From the NCBI GenBank assembly GCA_030612185.1, contig JAUWOI010000014.1, positions 1 to 20,372 on the forward strand: a DNA stretch of 20,372 bases, in the 5' to 3' direction. This document shows positions 2,296 through 10,834 of this stretch, piece after piece. Under the pieces are notes generated by a model. It saw nothing but the letters and a program-made list of their open reading frames with translations, did not search any database and had not been told where the DNA came from. Made by a program: the position numbers and the translations under genes. The stretch's first letter is position 1. The number at the start of each line of letters is the position of its first letter. This stretch comes from Anaerolineae bacterium (GTDB taxonomy: Bacteria > Chloroflexota > Anaerolineae > B4-G1).

Positions 2296-3684
2296 AGGCG
2301 CGGCTCGCGACCGCAAGCCCCGCCACGAGTACTCGCGGTGGCCCCCCTGCCTGGGGTGAACAACAGGGCACGGGCAACCCGCTGGTGGCTGTCGTGGCCC
2401 GTGGCGCTGCTGATAGCGGGACTGATAGCCGGCGTGGTTTTCGCCGCAACTGACCCCGACTGGGATGGTACGGAGCCGAAGAATGTCTCCGCCAGCGGGC
2501 CGAATTTGGCCCGGCAGCCGGCCATCGCGTCCAGCCCGTCGGGGCGGATGGTCGTCGTGTGGAGCGATCAGCGGTCAGAATCAGAAGGGGCGCAACGGAA
2601 TATCTACGCCGTCCTTTCAGATGACAATGGGGACACGTGGTCCACCGTGCCGGAACCGATATCTGATACTGAAGCCGACTCGCTATTGCCCGATGCGCTC
2701 GTCGTTGGAGACCAGTCCTTCGTCGCCTGGGTTGACGATGACCCGCCCACCGGGATCTACGAGGCGGCGTGGACGGGGACTGGAACCTGGGAAACGCATC
2801 ATATTCCTAGTCCTGTCCAGTTAAGTAATACGCGGCCGCGCCTGGCTGCCGGCGCGGACAGATTACACGTCGTGTTCAATGCCGGAAAGAACATTCCCGA
2901 CATCCTCTACGCCGCGCGCCCACTGGCGGCGGCGGCGTGGCCAACAGCGACCATCATATACACTCACACGGCCACCCTCGGTTCGTGGTATCCGGTGCTG
3001 GCCGTTGATCCAGATGGAGAGACGTTGCACGTGGTCTGGGAAGAACGCGCCTCCGCATCACAACGGGTAATCATGTATATGCGCGGGACGCTAAGTGGTG
3101 CCGACGTGGACTGGGCCTCCCCCATCACACTCTCCACAGGGATCACACTATCGCTCTGGCCCACCATTGCGGCCGATGCCAGTGGGAACCTGCACGTCGT
3201 CTGGGGGGAGCAGGTCGGAACGGGGGCTGTGCAGGAGCGGGGGCAGTATGTGCGCTACAGGCGCTACGATGTCGCCAGTGACTCGTGGTCAGAGCCGCCC
3301 GTTTTTCGACGGATTGATGACGAATCTGTAAGAGTCAATCAACTCCGCCCAACTGACATCTCTCCCAGCCTGGCCCTGGTGGAGAGGGACAATCAGGCAA
3401 CGGTCTGCGTTTCCTGGCACGGGTTTCGAGAGGGCGCATTGGCAGAGGAAGTGCTGCTGAGTTGCTCCCCGGACGGCGGGCAATCCTGGGAGGCACCACG
3501 GAACGTGTCACGCAGCCCTGGTGCAGAGGCGATCTCCATTGTGCCCTCCGTCGCGTTTGATGCGCGGGGGCGGTTACACAGTGTGTGGGAAGAACACGTT
3601 GGCGACAGCATAGTCTACAACTACGAGGTCTACTATGCCCGCGCTATTGTAAAGGTGTTTCTACCACTCATATTGAGGAGTTGA
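2260..3684 (+). CDS. Membrane-anchored Asp-box (BNR-like) beta-propeller protein
   Basis: 474 residues. A hydrophobic segment at residues 43-63, preceded by Arg-rich sequence, looks like a signal anchor, so the bulk is extracytoplasmic. Two Asp-box motifs are visible: SDDNGDTW (residues 120-127) and SPDGGQSW near the C-terminus. Repeated patterns such as LHVVWEE and HSVWEEHV fit blades of a sialidase-type propeller, but I see no sialidase active-site arginine triad that I could assign, so enzymatic function is not claimed. The start at 2260 has AAGAGGA five bases upstream. The first twelve residues are three copies of M-x-L-[AD], coded by a 12-bp tandem repeat. The protein ends in VFLPLILRS, a hydrophobic tail that I recall in many secreted Chloroflexota proteins. 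It lies 14 bp after the previous gene and 5 bp before the next. Confidence 0.75.
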   Translation: MHLAMYLAMYLDRRGSRPQAPPRVLAVAPLPGVNNRARATRWWLSWPVALLIAGLIAGVVFAATDPDWDGTEPKNVSASGPNLARQPAIASSPSGRMVVVWSDQRSESEGAQRNIYAVLSDDNGDTWSTVPEPISDTEADSLLPDALVVGDQSFVAWVDDDPPTGIYEAAWTGTGTWETHHIPSPVQLSNTRPRLAAGADRLHVVFNAGKNIPDILYAARPLAAAAWPTATIIYTHTATLGSWYPVLAVDPDGETLHVVWEERASASQRVIMYMRGTLSGADVDWASPITLSTGITLSLWPTIAADASGNLHVVWGEQVGTGAVQERGQYVRYRRYDVASDSWSEPPVFRRIDDESVRVNQLRPTDISPSLALVERDNQATVCVSWHGFREGALAEEVLLSCSPDGGQSWEAPRNVSRSPGAEAISIVPSVAFDARGRLHSVWEEHVGDSIVYNYEVYYARAIVKVFLPLILRS

Positions 3685-3689
3685 CACTG

Positions 3690-4337
3690 ATGGCGGACGA
3701 GGATAGGAAAAACCGGCTGTTGGGGCTTTTGGGAGTTGGTCTGGGGATAGCGGGCCTGCTCTTGCTTGGATACTTGCTCAGGCACCTACTGTGGGGTGAC
3801 GTGTCTATCTCAGCATCGCCGGCGACGACGGCCGTGCCGCCCACCCCGACGCGAGCATTGATAGACCTGTGGGATGCCTACGGGCAGGCTCGCACGGTGG
3901 CGCAGGCACGAGCGGAAGACGTACAACTCGTAGCGGCCTCCACGCAGTGGCAAGCGGCGAGTGAACAGGCATTGCTGGCCGGCGCCAGCAACTGGTCGTT
4001 CGTGTTCTACTCGGCGGCGAGCGATAGCGTGCTCGACATTGTCATAGGTGTTGGGGAAACACAGGTAGTGAACCAGACGCGGGTGTGGGTTGCCCCGAAG
4101 ATCATGGCCGAGGGCGCATGGCAGTCGGGGCCCAAGGACGCATTGTTGGTCTTCCTGGCCTACGGTGGCCGCACGTTTCTCGACGAACATCCACAGGCGG
4201 TGGTTGATCTGCACCTGGCCGAGAGTGACAGCGGGAGTCCAGTGTGGGCCATCGTCGCGCTGGATGTAAGTGACCGGAGCCTGCTTTCAGTGCTGATAGA
4301 CGCCGGCACAGGGCAGGTGTTGTCCGTCGCGCCCTGA
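3690..4337 (+). CDS. Small membrane-anchored protein of unknown function, PepSY-like C-terminus
   Basis: 215 residues with the start at ATG 3690, which has TGAGGAG about nine bases upstream and sits 5 bp after the preceding stop. A longer in-frame reading from 3585 would overlap the neighbour by 100 bp and is not preferred. Residues 10-31 form one transmembrane helix (GLLGVGLGIAGLLLLGYLL); a Pro/Thr-rich stretch follows and the remainder should be outside. The middle begins with an amphipathic helix (DLWDAYGQARTVAQARA). The C-terminal strand pattern around SPVWAIVAL and the closing DAGTGQVLSV resemble a PepSY-type fold, in which a strand ends in D-x-x-TG-x-V; this is a weak similarity. Its position directly before tadE suggests a pilus- or surface-associated role, by inference only. 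Confidence 0.7.
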   Translation: MADEDRKNRLLGLLGVGLGIAGLLLLGYLLRHLLWGDVSISASPATTAVPPTPTRALIDLWDAYGQARTVAQARAEDVQLVAASTQWQAASEQALLAGASNWSFVFYSAASDSVLDIVIGVGETQVVNQTRVWVAPKIMAEGAWQSGPKDALLVFLAYGGRTFLDEHPQAVVDLHLAESDSGSPVWAIVALDVSDRSLLSVLIDAGTGQVLSVAP

Positions 4338-4832: not shown

Positions 4833-6041
4833 ATGACAAAGTTTCTACGTGCAGAGCGCGGGCAAGCGGTATTCATCATGGTGTTTGTGCTGGTTGGCCT
4901 GTTGGCCATGCTGGGGCTAGCGATTGACGGTGGCACGGTGTTTCTCGAACGCCGGCGCATGCAGAACGCCGCCGACGCGGCTGCGCTGGCCGGCACGCGG
5001 CTGCTGGCTGAGGCCATCTGCGGCGCCACTGAGGTCATCACTGATGGGCTTATTGCCGAGCAGGTCAACCACTACGCCGAGATCAACGGCGTGCCCAGCG
5101 GGAATGTGGTGGCCGACTACGTGGACTTTGACGAGGAGGTGGTGGGGGATGGTCATGTGGGCCATGTAAGCGACGGCAAAATACCCGAACGTTCCACCGG
5201 CATCTCGGTGACGGTCGAGATCAGCCGCTCGACTCATTTTGTGACGTTGATTGGGATAGACACGGCTGGCGCTTCGGCCGATGCGCTGGCGATGACCGGC
5301 CCGCTGCTTGCGACCGGTGGGCTGAGGCCGATTGGGTTGCCTGTGGAGGTCGTGGAAGATCTGGGCCCGGGGGGCGAACTCACGATCAACATGGAGAATA
5401 ACTGCGACGACGATAACTGTACCGTTCAGTACATCCGGGATGATGGTGAAGGTGTCACGCACGCGCACCGTGGATGGTTGAACCTGCACTACGTCTGGAA
5501 GCAGGACGAAGATCCGGATTTCCCGCGCGCTTTGGACGCCAACATCGGCACGGGATGGGGAGGGCCGCAGCATGAGGGGCTGATGGACTGGATGCTAACA
5601 CCTCCGCAGATCGTGCTCTACGCTGACTGCCCGTGGGACAGCGATTGCAGGGAAGGGGACTACGTCGCCGCCAAGCCGGGCCTTAGCTGGGGGGCAATGA
5701 CGGGAGGGGGCTCCGAGTCCCTGTGCGAACAGATAAGCGACGAAATCTCTATCTTACCGGTCTATGACGCTGTCCCAGCGTGCGCAGAGGTTCCCGACCC
5801 GAAGCCGGCTTGCTCACCGCAGGGTGGCCAGAGCGTCGGCTACGTCTATCACATCATCGGCTTCTCGGTGGTGTACATCACCGGCTGTGATCAAGGGGCC
5901 GGAGGCGTGCATAATATCCACATGGAGATAGTGGAAGTGATCCTGGGCCAGGGGCAGATAAACCCCACTGTGACAGGGGCGGGATACGGCGAGGGAAACG
6001 CCTGTCAGTTCAACGTACAGGTGGTCACGCTCTGGAAGTAG
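4833..6041 (+). CDS. TadG-like protein (putative Flp pilus-assembly TadE/G-like), Cys-rich C-terminal domain
   Basis: 402 residues. The N-terminus (RGQAVFIMVFVLVGLLAMLG, then LAIDGGTVFLERRRMQNAADAAALAGTR) is the classic TadG/TadE-G-like signature: one membrane helix at about residues 11-31 followed by the conserved D-G and NAADAAALAG block. A beta-rich region follows. After about residue 180 there is a large domain not found in the minimal family, with about ten cysteines (for example NNCDDDNC, CPWDSDC and PACAEVPDPKPAC), probably disulphide-bonded outside the cell. The ribosome site AGGAGGT at 4820-4826 supports ATG 4833. It is the last gene of the run and is followed 32 bp later by a strong terminator hairpin. 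A role in Tad pilus or surface assembly is inferred from family and from its tadE-like neighbour. Confidence 0.82.
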   Translation: MTKFLRAERGQAVFIMVFVLVGLLAMLGLAIDGGTVFLERRRMQNAADAAALAGTRLLAEAICGATEVITDGLIAEQVNHYAEINGVPSGNVVADYVDFDEEVVGDGHVGHVSDGKIPERSTGISVTVEISRSTHFVTLIGIDTAGASADALAMTGPLLATGGLRPIGLPVEVVEDLGPGGELTINMENNCDDDNCTVQYIRDDGEGVTHAHRGWLNLHYVWKQDEDPDFPRALDANIGTGWGGPQHEGLMDWMLTPPQIVLYADCPWDSDCREGDYVAAKPGLSWGAMTGGGSESLCEQISDEISILPVYDAVPACAEVPDPKPACSPQGGQSVGYVYHIIGFSVVYITGCDQGAGGVHNIHMEIVEVILGQGQINPTVTGAGYGEGNACQFNVQVVTLWK

Positions 6042-6073
6042 GTGCTACCCGCGTCGGAAAAGCGACACGACGG

Positions 6074-6108
6074 TGCCCGGGCCATTCAGCGGCCCGGGCA
6101 TTTCTTTG
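6074..6108 (+). terminator. Rho-independent terminator after the Tad-like operon
   Basis: A perfect 10-bp stem TGCCCGGGCC/GGCCCGGGCA (6074-6083 and 6091-6100) with a 7-nt loop ATTCAGC is followed by TTTCTTT. It lies 32 bp after the tadG stop and is oriented for the plus-strand operon. There is no T-tract adjacent to the stem on the minus strand, so it should not serve priA/abiE from the other side in the same way. Confidence 0.85.
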
Positions 6109-6122
6109 CCTGTGGCTGCTAC

Positions 6123-6164
6123 CTACAACACGCTCACCGGGTCCACGTCCACGCGCCAGCCAGG
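6123..6164. repeat. Displaced copy of the priA 3' end (direct repeat, left copy)
   Basis: These 42 bp, read on the minus strand, encode PGWRVDVDPVSVL plus a TAG stop, exactly the last 13 residues and stop codon of PriA. They match 7276-7317 at 38 of 42 positions. The four differences (GAC for GAT, CCG for CCA, GTG for GTA, TTG for CTG) are all synonymous. No other part of priA is present here. Similarity stops abruptly at the PGW codons on one side and at the stop codon on the other. Confidence 0.9.
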
Positions 6165-6403
6165 ACTACCTGGGCAGACGGCGCAGACGACGTTTCCACC
6201 GACATACGGTGGCTGCCGTAGATGTGGCGCAAGGCCAGGCCACCTTTGAGCACCAGTTGGTCGCCCAATTCTGGCGTACGTGCAATCCGACGCAGGACAA
6301 TAGTCAGAACATAGTCGCGCTCCAGGTAATCCACCGGTACGCCGCGCTTGGCGGCCAGTTGCACCAGCCGGGCGTAACTGAGCCTCACCAGGTCTCGCGC
6401 CAC
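6134..6403 (-). pseudogene. AbiEii-like nucleotidyltransferase toxin, C-terminally truncated
   Basis: Residues 1-68 match the start of the AbiEii/nucleotidyltransferase family: a helical lead, the conserved LERDYVL block and VLKGGLALRHIYGSHRMS, corresponding to the family's VFKGGTALR-x-x-YG-x-x-R-x-S. In the family this is followed at once by the metal-binding D-x-D. Here the sequence instead runs into non-homologous residues and then, out of frame, through the displaced priA 3' end to a stop. Only 89 residues remain where the family usually has more than 200, and the catalytic aspartates are absent, so it should be inactive as a nucleotidyltransferase. Its start overlaps the abiEi stop by 19 bp, the usual antitoxin-then-toxin order. 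Confidence 0.8.
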
Positions 6404-7203
6404 GAAAGCAGGTCCTCCTGGGTTACGTTGACGTGCAGCCGCCAGCGCTTATCGAAGAAAGTAGGTTGTTTGGGAAGCAGGCGCGATAGGTACACCTGGG
6501 GTGTGCGCCCCAGATGGGGTTGCAGGCGCTCAGCGTCCGGCAAGCCAATCGTCTCCATCAGATATCCCAGACGGCGACAAAGAGGGGCGCTGTCCATCTG
6601 CACCGCGTAGTCGGTCAAGCGGGTTGTATCTATGCGCTCCGCAGCGCGGGCGAGAGTCTTCGCGATTTCGACAATGCCACCGCCATATCGTTCCTGATAG
6701 AGCGAATCCAGGAGTGCCTTTTCCGGTTCGGCCAGCCAGACCGGGTGGTCACGGATCATCTCTCGGCGCCGGCCGAAGAAACGTCTGGGAGACAGCCGCA
6801 CTATGCGGTAGCGCCAACGCTTGAATCTGTGCTCTGCGCTGCGTCCCTTCGATTGGGCGACGTAGACCACACGGGGCCGTTGCTCAGTCAGGGCATAATG
6901 AACCAGCGCGCTCCAGAAAGAGACGTAGTAATCGTGGGTGGCGATGGCAGTGGCGATGAGGAAGGGATGCTCTTCCCAACCCATCACTCCGGCACGGGGC
7001 ACGACCAGGTAGCGGCCGCGCCGGATGGGCTCCAGCCACCCTTTGGCAGTCAAGCGCTCAATGGCGTGCCGCCAGGCGGTGTCATCCAGGGTGGGGAAGA
7101 GATGCCGGTGCTGCTCTACATTCAGGATGGCGGCTTCTTCCAGGTCGAGGGTGGAAAGGATACGCCCTTCGATGCTGCCCAAACTGGGTTGCACTATGTG
7201 CAC
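6385..7203 (-). CDS. AbiEi-family antitoxin / transcriptional regulator
   Basis: About 272 residues from GTG 7203. An N-terminal winged-helix region (ILNVEQHRHLFPTL through AIERLTAKGWLEPIRRGRYLVVP) is followed by the AbiEi C-terminal domain: FWSALVHYALTEQRP, the VAQSKGR segment, FFGRRREMI, and LAEPEKALLDSLYQERYGG, the family's characteristic 'AxPEKALLD' block. AbiEi represses its own operon and neutralises the AbiEii toxin (type IV toxin-antitoxin / abortive infection). A longer reading from ATG 7248 is possible, but that codon lies upstream of the -10 box of a consensus promoter, so it cannot be on that transcript. GTG 7203 or GTG 7194 is preferred, though neither has a strong ribosome site. 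Its partner toxin is truncated, so the gene may survive as an orphan repressor or an immunity-only gene. Confidence 0.82.
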   Translation of the reverse strand: MHIVQPSLGSIEGRILSTLDLEEAAILNVEQHRHLFPTLDDTAWRHAIERLTAKGWLEPIRRGRYLVVPRAGVMGWEEHPFLIATAIATHDYYVSFWSALVHYALTEQRPRVVYVAQSKGRSAEHRFKRWRYRIVRLSPRRFFGRRREMIRDHPVWLAEPEKALLDSLYQERYGGGIVEIAKTLARAAERIDTTRLTDYAVQMDSAPLCRRLGYLMETIGLPDAERLQPHLGRTPQVYLSRLLPKQPTFFDKRWRLHVNVTQEDLLSWRETW

Positions 7204-7214
7204 TTCTGATGCGC

Positions 7215-7239
7215 GATAATCCTGTGTCACAGGATTATC
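7215..7239. promoter_or_regulatory. 25-bp palindromic operator, probable AbiEi binding site
   Basis: A perfect inverted repeat with 12-bp arms GATAATCCTGTG / CACAGGATTATC and a single central base. It starts within the -10 box and covers the predicted transcription start of the abiE promoter, an ideal place for repression. AbiEi proteins are known to bind inverted repeats in their own promoters, so this is the likely autoregulatory operator. Confidence 0.75.
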
Positions 7240-7265
7240 ATACATCAAAAATGCAGCACTGTCAA
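7237..7265 (-). promoter_or_regulatory. abiE promoter (TTGACA-17-TATGAT)
   Basis: Reading the minus strand, TTGACA at 7265-7260 is a perfect -35 box, 17 bases separate it from TATGAT at 7242-7237, and the transcription start is expected near 7230. It begins 10 bp past the priA stop codon, so the islet brings its own promoter. The start site overlaps the 25-bp palindrome. Confidence 0.75.
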
Positions 7266-7275
7266 CTCGACGATG

Positions 7276-7317
7276 CTACAGTACGCTCACTGGATCCACG
7301 TCCACGCGCCAGCCAGG
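7276..7317. repeat. priA 3' end in place (direct repeat, right copy)
   Basis: The last 13 codons and TAG stop of the complete priA gene. It matches 6123-6164 in direct orientation with four synonymous differences. Together the two copies bracket the AbiE islet. Confidence 0.9.
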
Positions 7318-9915
7318 GGGAATTCGGATGGCGCGGAGGAATTCGGCAGGGTTGGCGTGGCGCAGGATGATCTGCCAGCGGTAGCGACCGCGCAAGCGGG
7401 CGAAGAAGGGGGGCGCAGGGCCGATCAGGTCAGTCGCGGGGAGGCCACGCCGGGCCAACGTTTCGCGCAGAATCTCGACCAACGCTTCGGCCTCGGCCCG
7501 GGCGCGGGATGGGCTGGTATTCTCGTAGACCAGTTTCGCCAGGCGACGGTAGGGCGGGTAGCCCTGTTCCCGACGGAAGGCCAATTCGCGAGCGGCGAAC
7601 CCGGCGTAATTGTGGGCGGCCGCGGCGACGACGGCGTAGTGGTCGGGGTTGTACGTCTGGAGGATGACTCGCCCGCCAAGAAGCCCCCGCCCGGCTCGCC
7701 CAGCCACCTGGGTCAGCAACTGGAAGGTGCGCTCACCGGAACGGAAGTCGGGCAGGTTGAGCGCGGTGTCGGCCGAGATGATACCGACGACGGTCACCAG
7801 CGGCAGATCGAGCCCCTTGGCGATCATCTGCGTGCCGACGAGGACGTGGGCCAACCCGGTGCTAAAGAGATGGAGAATGGCGGCGTGAGCGGCGTGGTTG
7901 CGGGCAGTGTCACGGTCCCAGCGCAGGGTGCGGACATCGAGCCAACGCTGGTGCACTTCTCGCTCCACCCGCTCGGTGCCCAGGCCGAAGTAGCGGATGC
8001 GCTTGCCCCCGCACTGGGGGCAGCGCTCGGGGCGGGGCTCGCGGGAGTTGCAGTGGTGGCAGACCAGGCGGGCGTGGGGGCTGTGATAGGTCAGTGGGAT
8101 GTCGCAACGGGCACATTTCACGACGTGACCACAATCGCGGCAGAGGACGAATGTAGCAGTTCCCCGCCGGTTGAGAAAGAGGATGACCTGCTCACCCTGC
8201 CCCAACGCCTCGTCCATCGCCCGCTGGAGGGCACGGCTGAAGATGGAACGGTTGCCGGCGCGCAGTTCGGCCCGCAGGTCCACGATCTGCACCGGGGGCA
8301 GGTCTATGTAACAAGCGCCAGCAGAGCCGTCGTGCAGCGCGTGATAGCGAATGTGGGGGATGCGGTAGCGGGTCTGGAGGTCGTGCAGGCGGCGGGTGTG
8401 CCCCATGATGCGGCGGGGCATCTCCAGCAGCGTGAACTGGCCGCGCTGGGCGCGATGGTAGGATTCAAGGCTGGGGGTGGCGGAACCGAGGATGACTGAC
8501 GCGCCGGTCATGCGGGCCAGTTCGAGCGCTGCGTCGCGGGCGTGATAGAAAGGTGCCAGGGGTCCAGGAGGAAGACGATCGTGTTGCTTAGCCCCTTCCT
8601 CAAATCCTATCTCTTCTTGTTTGTAACTGTCGTCGTGTTCCTCATCCAGAACAATGAGCCCGATGTTGGGAAGAGGGACGAAAAGAGCAGAGCGCGGACC
8701 AATGACAACGCCCACCAAGCCGGCACGGGCACGACGCCATGTGTCGTACCGTTCGCCGTCGGTGAGCGCGCTATGGAGAATGGCGATACGCCGGCCAAAG
8801 CGTGCTCCGAAACGATGTGCTGTCTGCGGTGTCAGGCTGATTTCGGGTACCAGCACGATGGCCTGTCGGCCTCGCGCCAGCACCTCGGCGACGGCTCGCA
8901 GGTAGATCTCTGTCTTGCCAGATCCGGTCACGCCGTGGAGTAGATAAGTAGATGCGGAATGAGTAGATGAGGAACCCCCTTCCCCATTTGCTCGTCCCTC
9001 ATTTACTCGTCTACTCACTCTACTTATTCCTTCCCTGATCTCCTCCCATACCGCCTGCTGATCCGACGTCAGGTGCGGAGGACTGTCGGGAACGAAGGTT
9101 GCATCGGCCAGCGGGTCACGCCAGACTTCCTCGATGTCGAAAGTAACGAGCCCTCGCTCGGCCAGTTTGTTGAGGTGGTAGCGGGTGCAGCCAGTCTCGG
9201 CATAGACCCAACTGACGTCTACCGGGCCACCTTCGGTGCGCAGGAACTCGACGATGGAGGGATAACATTCGCTCTTCAGCCCGGCCATCGCTGTGTCTGG
9301 GTCAACGTCGAGGGCTGTCCATTCAATTGTGCGCACCTGTTTTGGACGAGCGCGGGGCGGTGCCAGGAAGGGGGACTTGGCGATCACTCCCCGGCGAGCA
9401 AGCTGAGACGCAGCACGGCGCCATTGTTGGCGGGGCAGCAGGCGGTCCAATTGTCGCCCACGCAACTGGCCCTTGGAATCCAGCACTGTGATCAATCGCT
9501 CCTGGGCTTCCGTTCGCACGTCCCGAGGCTTGATCTCCCCCGTCAACTCGACCTGTACATCGGCGTATCCGACTACACCAGGTGGCAGCATCAGCATTAG
9601 GCATCTCCAGAGCGGCGCCAGGCACTCGCGACTCATCCAGCGGGCCAGCGCGATCTGGGCCGGCGTGAGGACGGGTTCGGGGTCCACCAGCGATTCGACG
9701 GGGCGGGTCTCGGGGACGGGGGACTCGTCACTGAGAGCGACGACGACGCCGTAGAGCCGGCGGGGGCCGAAGGGGACGACGACGAGAGAGCCCGCCACCA
9801 AGCGGCCTTGCAGTTCGTGTGGCAGGTGGTAGGTGAAGGTGGGGGCAGCCGCGCCCGGGGCCGGTGTCTTGACCGTAGAAAAGACGACTACATCAGCAAA
9901 CGGACCGGATTCCAT
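7276..9915 (-). CDS. priA: Primosomal protein N' (replication restart helicase PriA)
   Basis: 879 residues. PriA is a 3'-to-5' helicase that recognises stalled forks and reloads the replisome. The N-terminal DNA-binding region is followed by Walker A GVTGSGKTE (about residues 328-336), the VPEISLTPQ block, DEEHDDSYKQEE (Walker B DEEH), GSATPSLES, and the zinc-binding cysteines in CRDCGHVVKCARCDIPL and CHHCNSREPRPERCPQCGG. Next come GTERVE, GTQMIAKGLDLPLVTVVGI and QVAGRAGRG. It is longer than the E. coli protein (732 residues) because of insertions at about residues 296-325 (repeat-derived, just before Walker A), 432-452 (between SYKQEE and YHARDAA) and 505-530. ATG 9915 lies 8 bp after a heptamer array that supplies the only GAGGAG-like ribosome site. 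The last 13 codons are duplicated beyond the AbiE islet. Confidence 0.95.
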   Translation of the reverse strand: MESGPFADVVVFSTVKTPAPGAAAPTFTYHLPHELQGRLVAGSLVVVPFGPRRLYGVVVALSDESPVPETRPVESLVDPEPVLTPAQIALARWMSRECLAPLWRCLMLMLPPGVVGYADVQVELTGEIKPRDVRTEAQERLITVLDSKGQLRGRQLDRLLPRQQWRRAASQLARRGVIAKSPFLAPPRARPKQVRTIEWTALDVDPDTAMAGLKSECYPSIVEFLRTEGGPVDVSWVYAETGCTRYHLNKLAERGLVTFDIEEVWRDPLADATFVPDSPPHLTSDQQAVWEEIREGISRVSRRVNEGRANGEGGSSSTHSASTYLLHGVTGSGKTEIYLRAVAEVLARGRQAIVLVPEISLTPQTAHRFGARFGRRIAILHSALTDGERYDTWRRARAGLVGVVIGPRSALFVPLPNIGLIVLDEEHDDSYKQEEIGFEEGAKQHDRLPPGPLAPFYHARDAALELARMTGASVILGSATPSLESYHRAQRGQFTLLEMPRRIMGHTRRLHDLQTRYRIPHIRYHALHDGSAGACYIDLPPVQIVDLRAELRAGNRSIFSRALQRAMDEALGQGEQVILFLNRRGTATFVLCRDCGHVVKCARCDIPLTYHSPHARLVCHHCNSREPRPERCPQCGGKRIRYFGLGTERVEREVHQRWLDVRTLRWDRDTARNHAAHAAILHLFSTGLAHVLVGTQMIAKGLDLPLVTVVGIISADTALNLPDFRSGERTFQLLTQVAGRAGRGLLGGRVILQTYNPDHYAVVAAAAHNYAGFAARELAFRREQGYPPYRRLAKLVYENTSPSRARAEAEALVEILRETLARRGLPATDLIGPAPPFFARLRGRYRWQIILRHANPAEFLRAIRIPPGWRVDVDPVSVL
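8941..9028. repeat. GTAGATGAG-type repeat forming an imperfect hairpin inside priA
   Basis: Two arms (8941-8972 and 8997-9028) made of tandem 7-8 bp units such as GTAGATAA/GAGTAGAT, with the second arm inverted, flank a loop of about 24 bp. The segment reads in frame through priA as a Ser/Arg/Gly-rich stretch immediately upstream of the Walker A strand, where typical PriA proteins have a short loop. Its base composition and simplicity differ from the surrounding priA sequence. Confidence 0.7.
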
Positions 9916-10015: not shown

Positions 10016-10834
10016 TCAGACCTCCTCGCCGAAGCGAGGGCTGTAGCGCAGGAATACAAGGTAGCCGACGACAAGCACGACCAGCGCAGTGACGGCGGTG
10101 CGCAGCAGGAAGTCGAGGCCCGTCGGCCCGCCCCGGTAAAGCAGATCGCGGTAGGAGGCGATGATAGAGGCCATCGGATTCAGGCGGCGCAGCCAGAGTT
10201 GGGCGTCGAAGGTGATCCCCAGCGCAGTGATCTGTTGTGGAACGTCTTGGATTGGGTAAAACACTGGCGTCAGGAAGAAGCAGGCCAGCATGACCACGCC
10301 CAGGATGATCTGTGTGTCCCGGAAGAAAACGTTGAGGGTGGTGAGGAATAATGTCAGCCCGATAGTAAATGCCACCTGGATCAGAATGGTGATTGGCAGG
10401 AGCAGTACCCACCAGGTCAGTGGAGCGCCGGAGACAAGCACCAGGATGAAAAAGATAGGCAGGGCGATGAGGAAATTGACCAGGTTGGACAGCACGGTGG
10501 AGATAGGAAGCACCTCGCGGGGAAAGTAGACTTTTTTGATGAGGTGGGCGTTGCTGACGATGCTGCCGGTGGCCTGGAAGACCGCATCGTTGAAGAAATT
10601 CCAGGGCAACAACCCGCACAGCAGGAGAACCGAATAGTGGGCAGTACTCTCATCGCCACCGCGCAGTATGGTATAGACGGCGGTGTAGACGATCATCATC
10701 AATAGGGGGTTGAGCCATGACCAGACGATACCCAGGGCAGAACTTTTGTAGCGCACCTTCAGATCGCGCATGACCAGGTTGCGGATCAACTCCCGATATT
10801 GCCAGAGTTCGCGCAGGTGGCGCATGATATTCAT
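10016..10834 (-). CDS. ABC-2 type polysaccharide/LPS export permease (Wzm-like)
   Basis: 272 residues from ATG 10834, chosen because GGAGG lies about five bases upstream and the protein then begins in the family manner (MNIMRHLRELWQYRELIRNL, then VMRDLKVRYK). About six hydrophobic helices follow, with the family features SALGIVWSWLNPLLMMIVY, the LLPWNFFNDAV segment, the NAHLIKKVYFPREVLPIS loop and RLNPMASIIASYRDLLYRG. Such permeases pair with a Wzt ATPase to export O-antigen, teichoic-acid or other glycan chains across the inner membrane. It lies 10 bp downstream of a GT4 glycosyltransferase in the same operon, which supports glycan export. The ATPase is not found: downstream is priA, and nothing else here encodes an ABC ATPase, so the partner must lie elsewhere. 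Confidence 0.88.
   Translation of the reverse strand: MNIMRHLRELWQYRELIRNLVMRDLKVRYKSSALGIVWSWLNPLLMMIVYTAVYTILRGGDESTAHYSVLLLCGLLPWNFFNDAVFQATGSIVSNAHLIKKVYFPREVLPISTVLSNLVNFLIALPIFFILVLVSGAPLTWWVLLLPITILIQVAFTIGLTLFLTTLNVFFRDTQIILGVVMLACFFLTPVFYPIQDVPQQITALGITFDAQLWLRRLNPMASIIASYRDLLYRGGPTGLDFLLRTAVTALVVLVVGYLVFLRYSPRFGEEV

Follow-up and report, generated by a model that had tools for sequence, protein, structure and literature searches.

A small toxin-antitoxin islet appears to have inserted at the 3' end of priA in an Anaerolineae bacterium and to have replaced the tail of that gene, a reading that is well supported by the sequence comparisons described here. Within the window (the whole stretch of DNA that was analysed, 20,372 nucleotides), the last 13 codons and the stop codon of priA (7276-7317) occur a second time, in the same orientation, at 6123-6164 (Table 1). 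The two tails are identical at 38 of 42 nucleotides with a spacing of 1153, and both translate to PGWRVDVDPVSVL-stop. A sequence-only reading of this DNA had described the direct repeat and had noted that its four mismatches are synonymous, and we find the same: the differences are GAT/GAC, CCA/CCG, GTA/GTG and CTG/TTG, and when random quartets of substitutions were simulated in the tail, all four were silent in just 0.2-0.7% of trials. That reading had also named a chance similarity as what would undo it. Against the 38 matching positions observed, the best same-orientation 42-mer match in first-order Markov resamplings of the window averaged 23.3 and never exceeded 27 (200 resamplings). The first 23 nucleotides of the two tails are identical and all four differences fall within the last 19, a clustering that has a 3.5% chance under an even spread. 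Since PriA proteins ending in GWRVDVDPVSVL are common among the homologues listed (50 of 120), silent differences are what would be expected of a tail donated by a related lineage, and the proposal that one of the two tails had such an origin fits these counts. Codon preferences weakly favour the left-over copy as the native tail (ratio 4.6).

The islet between the tails contains a promoter, an intact abiEi and a dead abiEii. The promoter starts 10 nt past the priA stop; a scan found one promoter of this kind, compared with 0.5 expected in shuffled sequence. It lies under a 28-nt inverted repeat, as expected of a promoter regulated by AbiEi, and this repeat (7199..7255), with its core AATCCTGTG-A-CACAGGATT, is probably the AbiEi operator. 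AbiE is negatively autoregulated, as stated in the available excerpt of PMC7319586. Homology to the starts at L310 and L311 places the beginning of abiEi at GTG 7194 rather than TTG 7248. Relatives of this AbiEi were found in 6 of 396 genomes of the class at E<=1e-38, with a best identity of 56%, and in viral contigs neither the tail pattern nor AbiEi was matched.

An intact AbiEii is absent from the window, where just the first ~70 residues match. This piece is 55.7% identical over 70 residues to the AbiEii of L311, the closest among those compared at the DNA level. After HRMSV the gene continues in another frame as RRLRRLPR-stop (6192-6166), and the stop of this stump falls 1 nt short of the left-over tail. 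We infer that a deletion inside the gene, out of frame and spanning about 180 residues, left a short stump; it would have killed the toxin while retaining the end of the islet. The earlier description of the cargo as abiEi with a truncated abiEii stands as regards the antitoxin gene and the damage to its partner, with an internal deletion probably taking the place of truncation. The deletion would have followed the arrival of the islet and left an orphan AbiEi that probably represses just its own promoter. Gene order and the inverted repeat over the promoter resemble those of the type IV toxin-antitoxin system AbiEi/AbiEii; unlike such systems, the window has a toxin gene that is destroyed.

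Table 1. Features at the priA 3' end and on the tadG side of the window.
Feature	Position	Strand	Basis
priA, complete, 879 aa	7276..9915	-	domains PriA 3'BD, DEAD, Zn-ribbon, Helicase_C, PriA_C
functional priA tail, last 13 codons + stop	7276..7317	-	direct repeat D1, silent differences
islet, 1,111 nt, flanked by the tails	6165..7275	-	spacing of the repeat
sigma-70-like promoter, TTGACA-17-TATGAT	7237..7265	-	11/12 consensus positions
inverted repeat I1 spanning the promoter	7199..7255	.	28-nt arms, 82% complementary
abiEi antitoxin, intact	6385..7194	-	PADLOC AbiEi E=3.3e-59; Pfam AbiEi_1 3.4e-6
abiEii toxin gene, 5' part, 70 codons	6194..6403	-	PADLOC AbiEii E=1.5e-11
probable abiEii 3' stump, RRLRRLPR-stop	6166..6192	-	sequence reading against L311 SRKLRFLR-stop
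left-over (displaced) priA tail	6123..6164	-	direct repeat D1, 38/42 identical, silent differences
hairpin on the tadG side of the left-over tail	6075..6099	.	read by eye
tadG-like gene facing priA	4833..6041	+	Pfam Tad E=1.7e-13

Our survey of priA 3' ends covered 140 distinct loci, made up of 28 from Chloroflexota (taken from 80, with 52 left out because their titles were unclear or did not name Chloroflexota) and 112 further genome places, which include 80 + 6 among the matches listed; L135, L143 and L144 were excluded with the priA end cut off. A second tail in direct orientation occurred at one of the 136 ends for which 300 nt or more of following sequence was available, locus L142 of genome G635, which scored 36/42 against 26/42 for the next best site and a median of 22. 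Tail duplication at priA is rare. The sequence-only reading had looked to relatives for priA followed by variable cargo and a second tail; G635 provides such a case, with unrelated cargo, and the other 135 of 136 sites do not. Among 48 genomes of the order a search with the tail pattern matched 6, G635 alone twice, at a low sensitivity that left many genomes' own priA ends unmatched, and phylum-wide the exact pattern matched 2 of 400 genomes, once each. In a general control on 7,534 ORF ends (ORFs of at least 100 aa, 2.6 Mb), 20 hits within 5 kb reached at least 33/42. The window accounts for one of them and a single place in G635 for three, and L225 is annotated among the remainder. At L225 (G621:C174) an AbiE pair lies between 300-nt direct repeats (1121-1420 and 3217-3516, 87% identical) that form part of a P-loop ATPase-like gene, so diverged flanking repeats occur also away from gene ends.

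In G635, priA is followed by a promoter, an RHH_1 gene, a PIN gene, the second tail and, on the other strand, a lactate permease gene. Both cargo domains score above cut-offs (RHH_1 E=1.2e-4, PIN E=8.8e-11), and the ribbon-helix-helix gene followed by the PIN-domain gene gives the pair its VapBC-like character. The layout is shared with the window: the promoter, here a perfect TTGACA-17-TATAAT, starts 3 nt past the priA stop (10 nt in the window), and the toxin stop lies 15 nt before the second tail (1 nt in the window), in an islet of 0.8 kb as against 1.1 kb. The longest stretch of identity between the G635 tails is placed differently from that in the window, and the left-over tail there has two silent changes, Q to R and D to G replacements and a lost stop. 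Coding conservation of the displaced tail, which the sequence-only reading had put forward, is thus a feature of the window and not of G635.

Genome G018 has the same flanks and no cargo: its priA runs directly into the same lactate permease, and identity to G635 is 79.6% in the priA flank (137 nt) and 79.1% in the permease flank (679 nt). In G631 an RHH/PIN pair (L335, G631:C62, 302-1100) adjoins the same permease tail to tail, with no priA tail between them and no priA at left; the priA contig of that genome (C218) ends within the priA tail. The G631 PIN protein is 77% identical to that of G635, and the similarity between the two pairs starts at the first base past the G635 priA stop, which marks the edge of the islet there. 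PriA identities (88.9% for G631-G018, 85.5% for G635-G631 and 84.0% for G635-G018) place G631 nearest to G018, and the pair would therefore have been either ancestral and cleanly lost in G018 or acquired twice. The cargo-free site of G018 may accordingly reflect loss of the pair rather than a site that never held it. On these comparisons G635 is an independent filled site with an unrelated toxin-antitoxin cargo; the footprint of integration at the priA 3' end, as first proposed from the window, is strengthened by this second filled site and by the same flanks without cargo in G018.

Of the 35 surveyed ends in the order whose downstream sequence reaches at least 300 nt, 3 or more have toxin-antitoxin genes adjoining priA. 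G225 (L153) has an intact AbiE pair, of a different type, that begins 48 nt past the end of priA; behind priA in G640 (L295) AbiEi is intact and AbiEii is reduced by deletions, and in G639 (L294) an AbiE locus has shrunk to its promoter region and first codons. A second priA tail is absent in all three, which together present one AbiE locus as intact, with its toxin partly deleted, and fully deleted. Further relatives have AbiEi homologues (85-86%) and PriA homologues (81-78%) whose longest contigs are equal in length, at 33212 and 37930 bases, with two weaker equal-length pairs at 10357 and 12892 (55 AbiEi rows compared by eye with 120 listed PriA rows). This suggests that those relatives carry abiE and priA on common contigs, where the two may be adjacent. 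If such shared islets are old, the intact left-over tail of the window would need a recent re-insertion or an exchange of tails.

A home-made tyrosine-recombinase model built from 10 proteins found no integrase in the window, and the 1,111 nt of the islet are taken up by abiEi and the remains of abiEii, in line with the sequence-only reading. Near the priA ends of the 140 loci (median downstream length about 6 kb), the model matched just one fragment, at L190, its sole match in 124 loci and the window, with none in 16 further loci. Integrases in longer elements at the same site, which that reading had proposed to look for, came down to this fragment. At L190 (G062:C172), in a stretch behind priA that is partly masked, an HTH protein and a C-terminal tyrosine-integrase fragment lie on the other strand (500-790 and 1252-1584); the HTH protein could be an antitoxin. 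The draft genome of G635 gave 0 tyrosine-recombinase matches, and on the G018 contig that bears priA an integrase lies about 13 kb past the gene, with no second tail in that stretch. Within the 42-mer, no inverted repeats or core symmetry appeared by the criteria used. A dif (XerC/D) site in the tail was tried with the E. coli dif sequence and rejected, the best matches of 11/28 and 9/28 being the same as in shuffles. Sliding identity along the priA of 13 relatives, a noisy measure, gave no clear switch of donor.

The best explanation of these observations, to which we give an even chance, is insertion of the islet within the priA 3' end by a recombinase that acted in trans or has since been lost. 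Entry of a single toxin-antitoxin module would have parted the final codons of priA from the DNA that originally followed them, and the incoming DNA would have carried a priA tail of a related lineage that now completes the gene, the last part of the functional tail having arrived with the islet. The old tail of the host would have been left 1.1 kb downstream, still joined to the tadG side. The crossover would lie inside the tail, with the 23 identical nucleotides as a candidate core, and a site-specific recombinase would have served the islet from elsewhere, or before its loss, as it might a cis-mobilizable element. A near-common junction, tight edges in both cases and 23 identical nucleotides followed by diverged ends speak for a site-specific process. 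Doubt comes from the tyrosine-integrase negatives, the lack of core symmetry or a dif site, and the different placing of the identical stretch in G635; the absence of a priA tail in G631, and AbiE in G225 and G640 without a second tail, also count against the favoured model. Recombination without any dedicated enzyme has to be weighed beside it: DNA bearing a related-lineage priA and toxin-antitoxin genes would have recombined homologously in priA and been joined by short homology or illegitimately in the tail, or, in a variant, a tail-bearing circle would have integrated through a single short-homology crossover. The G621 repeats and the recombinase negatives keep this a serious rival, although we think it rather more probably wrong than right. 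Diverged tails of related lineages require no enzyme, the tyrosine model found no integrase in the window or at priA ends, suitable donors exist in G225 and G640 with AbiE after priA and no second tail, and the AbiE pair of G621 sits between 300-nt, 87% repeats of part of an ATPase gene. Such joining fits less easily with two independent junctions at nearly identical priA codons, right at the toxin stop, and the best-matching relative shows no clear switch along priA, noisy as that comparison is. We modestly favour site-specific recombination in trans, of a CIME-like kind, over recombination by short homology.

A local duplication of the priA tail, with the gene pair arriving later and the copies drifting, would account for same-orientation tails 1,153 nt apart and for the drifted left-over tail of G635. 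Yet four of the four window differences are silent, as in 0.2-0.7% of simulations, the same combination also arose in G635, and none of 136 sites has a duplicated tail minus cargo, which makes such a history improbable in our judgement. We rate lower still an assembly artefact, in which the contig would fuse two related organisms: the contig of the window is indeed short (20,461 bases), and G635 and most relatives are in many contigs, but a false join at shared sequence leaves one copy rather than two, G635 has the identical anatomy, and the equal-length AbiEi/PriA contigs (33212, 37930) suggest co-location elsewhere.

Most descriptions of insertion at gene ends concern large islands that encode an integrase; the genomic islands known at the 3' ends of protein genes, SGI1 for example, are large. 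Some Acinetobacter dif modules carry toxin-antitoxin pairs. The sequence-only observation is confirmed and its interpretation partly supported, as an uncommon form of insertion at gene ends in which single toxin-antitoxin modules are the cargo. CIMEs are decayed integrative elements that retain att sites, and the classical CIMEs of S. salivarius, of 1.2-13 kb, lie in islands at the 3' ends of rpmG, rpsI, fda and rplL (excerpt of PMC7563491). Like the CIMEs of that excerpt, the islet lacks recombination genes, is flanked by repeats of a gene 3' end, which may be att sites, and has a small cargo; it differs from those described there in its target, priA, and in carrying one toxin-antitoxin pair in 1.1 kb (0.8 kb in G635). 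By the tyrosine-integrase search and the content of the 1,111 nt (abiEi and what remains of abiEii), it encodes neither an integrase nor conjugation functions, and in 140 regions downstream of priA (median about 6 kb), one of which holds an integrase fragment, no ICE or IME that could be its parent came to light. To us the islet looks like something that works as a CIME does, which is not to claim it as one. SGI1 is a genomic island at the 3' end of trmE (excerpt of PMC8409611), and the islet is like it in using the end of a coding gene as insertion place with the frame kept; unlike islands of that type, the window has no match to the tyrosine-integrase model. The dif modules of Acinetobacter plasmids have 28-bp Xer sites (available portion of PMC6449649) and resemble the islet in that a few genes lie between short sites and bring no recombinase with them, whereas the priA tail has no dif similarity. 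In the open-licence literature, the mentions of priA that were followed up (PRIAM, an author name, a reference title and a Chlamydia gene converging on priA) held nothing relevant to priA as an integration site.

In both cases a single two-gene module forms the cargo; the two modules are unrelated and sit at nearly identical codons of priA, a replication-restart gene, whose end thus seems to be a place where very small islets land. If the process is site-specific, the islet would count among very small mobile units and offer a tidy setting in which to ask how toxin-antitoxin pairs pass between chromosomes. An antitoxin gene left without its toxin next to a conserved gene can be the remnant of an islet that has decayed. 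We consider unlikely the broader proposition that Chloroflexota have a class of recombinase-less cassettes of ~1 kb, with one toxin-antitoxin pair apiece, for which the conserved priA coding end is a dedicated attachment site, bringing a replacement tail with a promoter right after it and moved in trans by an enzyme with its gene elsewhere.

On the other side of the islet, the tadG-like gene has relatives in 31 of the 48 genomes from the order, and none was matched in the 19 first-read priA loci. The sequence-only reading had expected islet-free relatives in which priA faces a terminator on the tadG side (6074-6108); we found no empty tadG/priA junction. At the place of that terminator a hairpin, possibly the original terminator, can be seen by eye (6075-6099), but a terminator scan of 6000-7400 called none. 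A 250-aa open frame without a Pfam match lies beside tadE/tadG (3585-4337). One draft genome holds two distinct priA genes (G624:C9 and G624:C375), 75% and 80% identical to that of the window, and is perhaps a mixed assembly.
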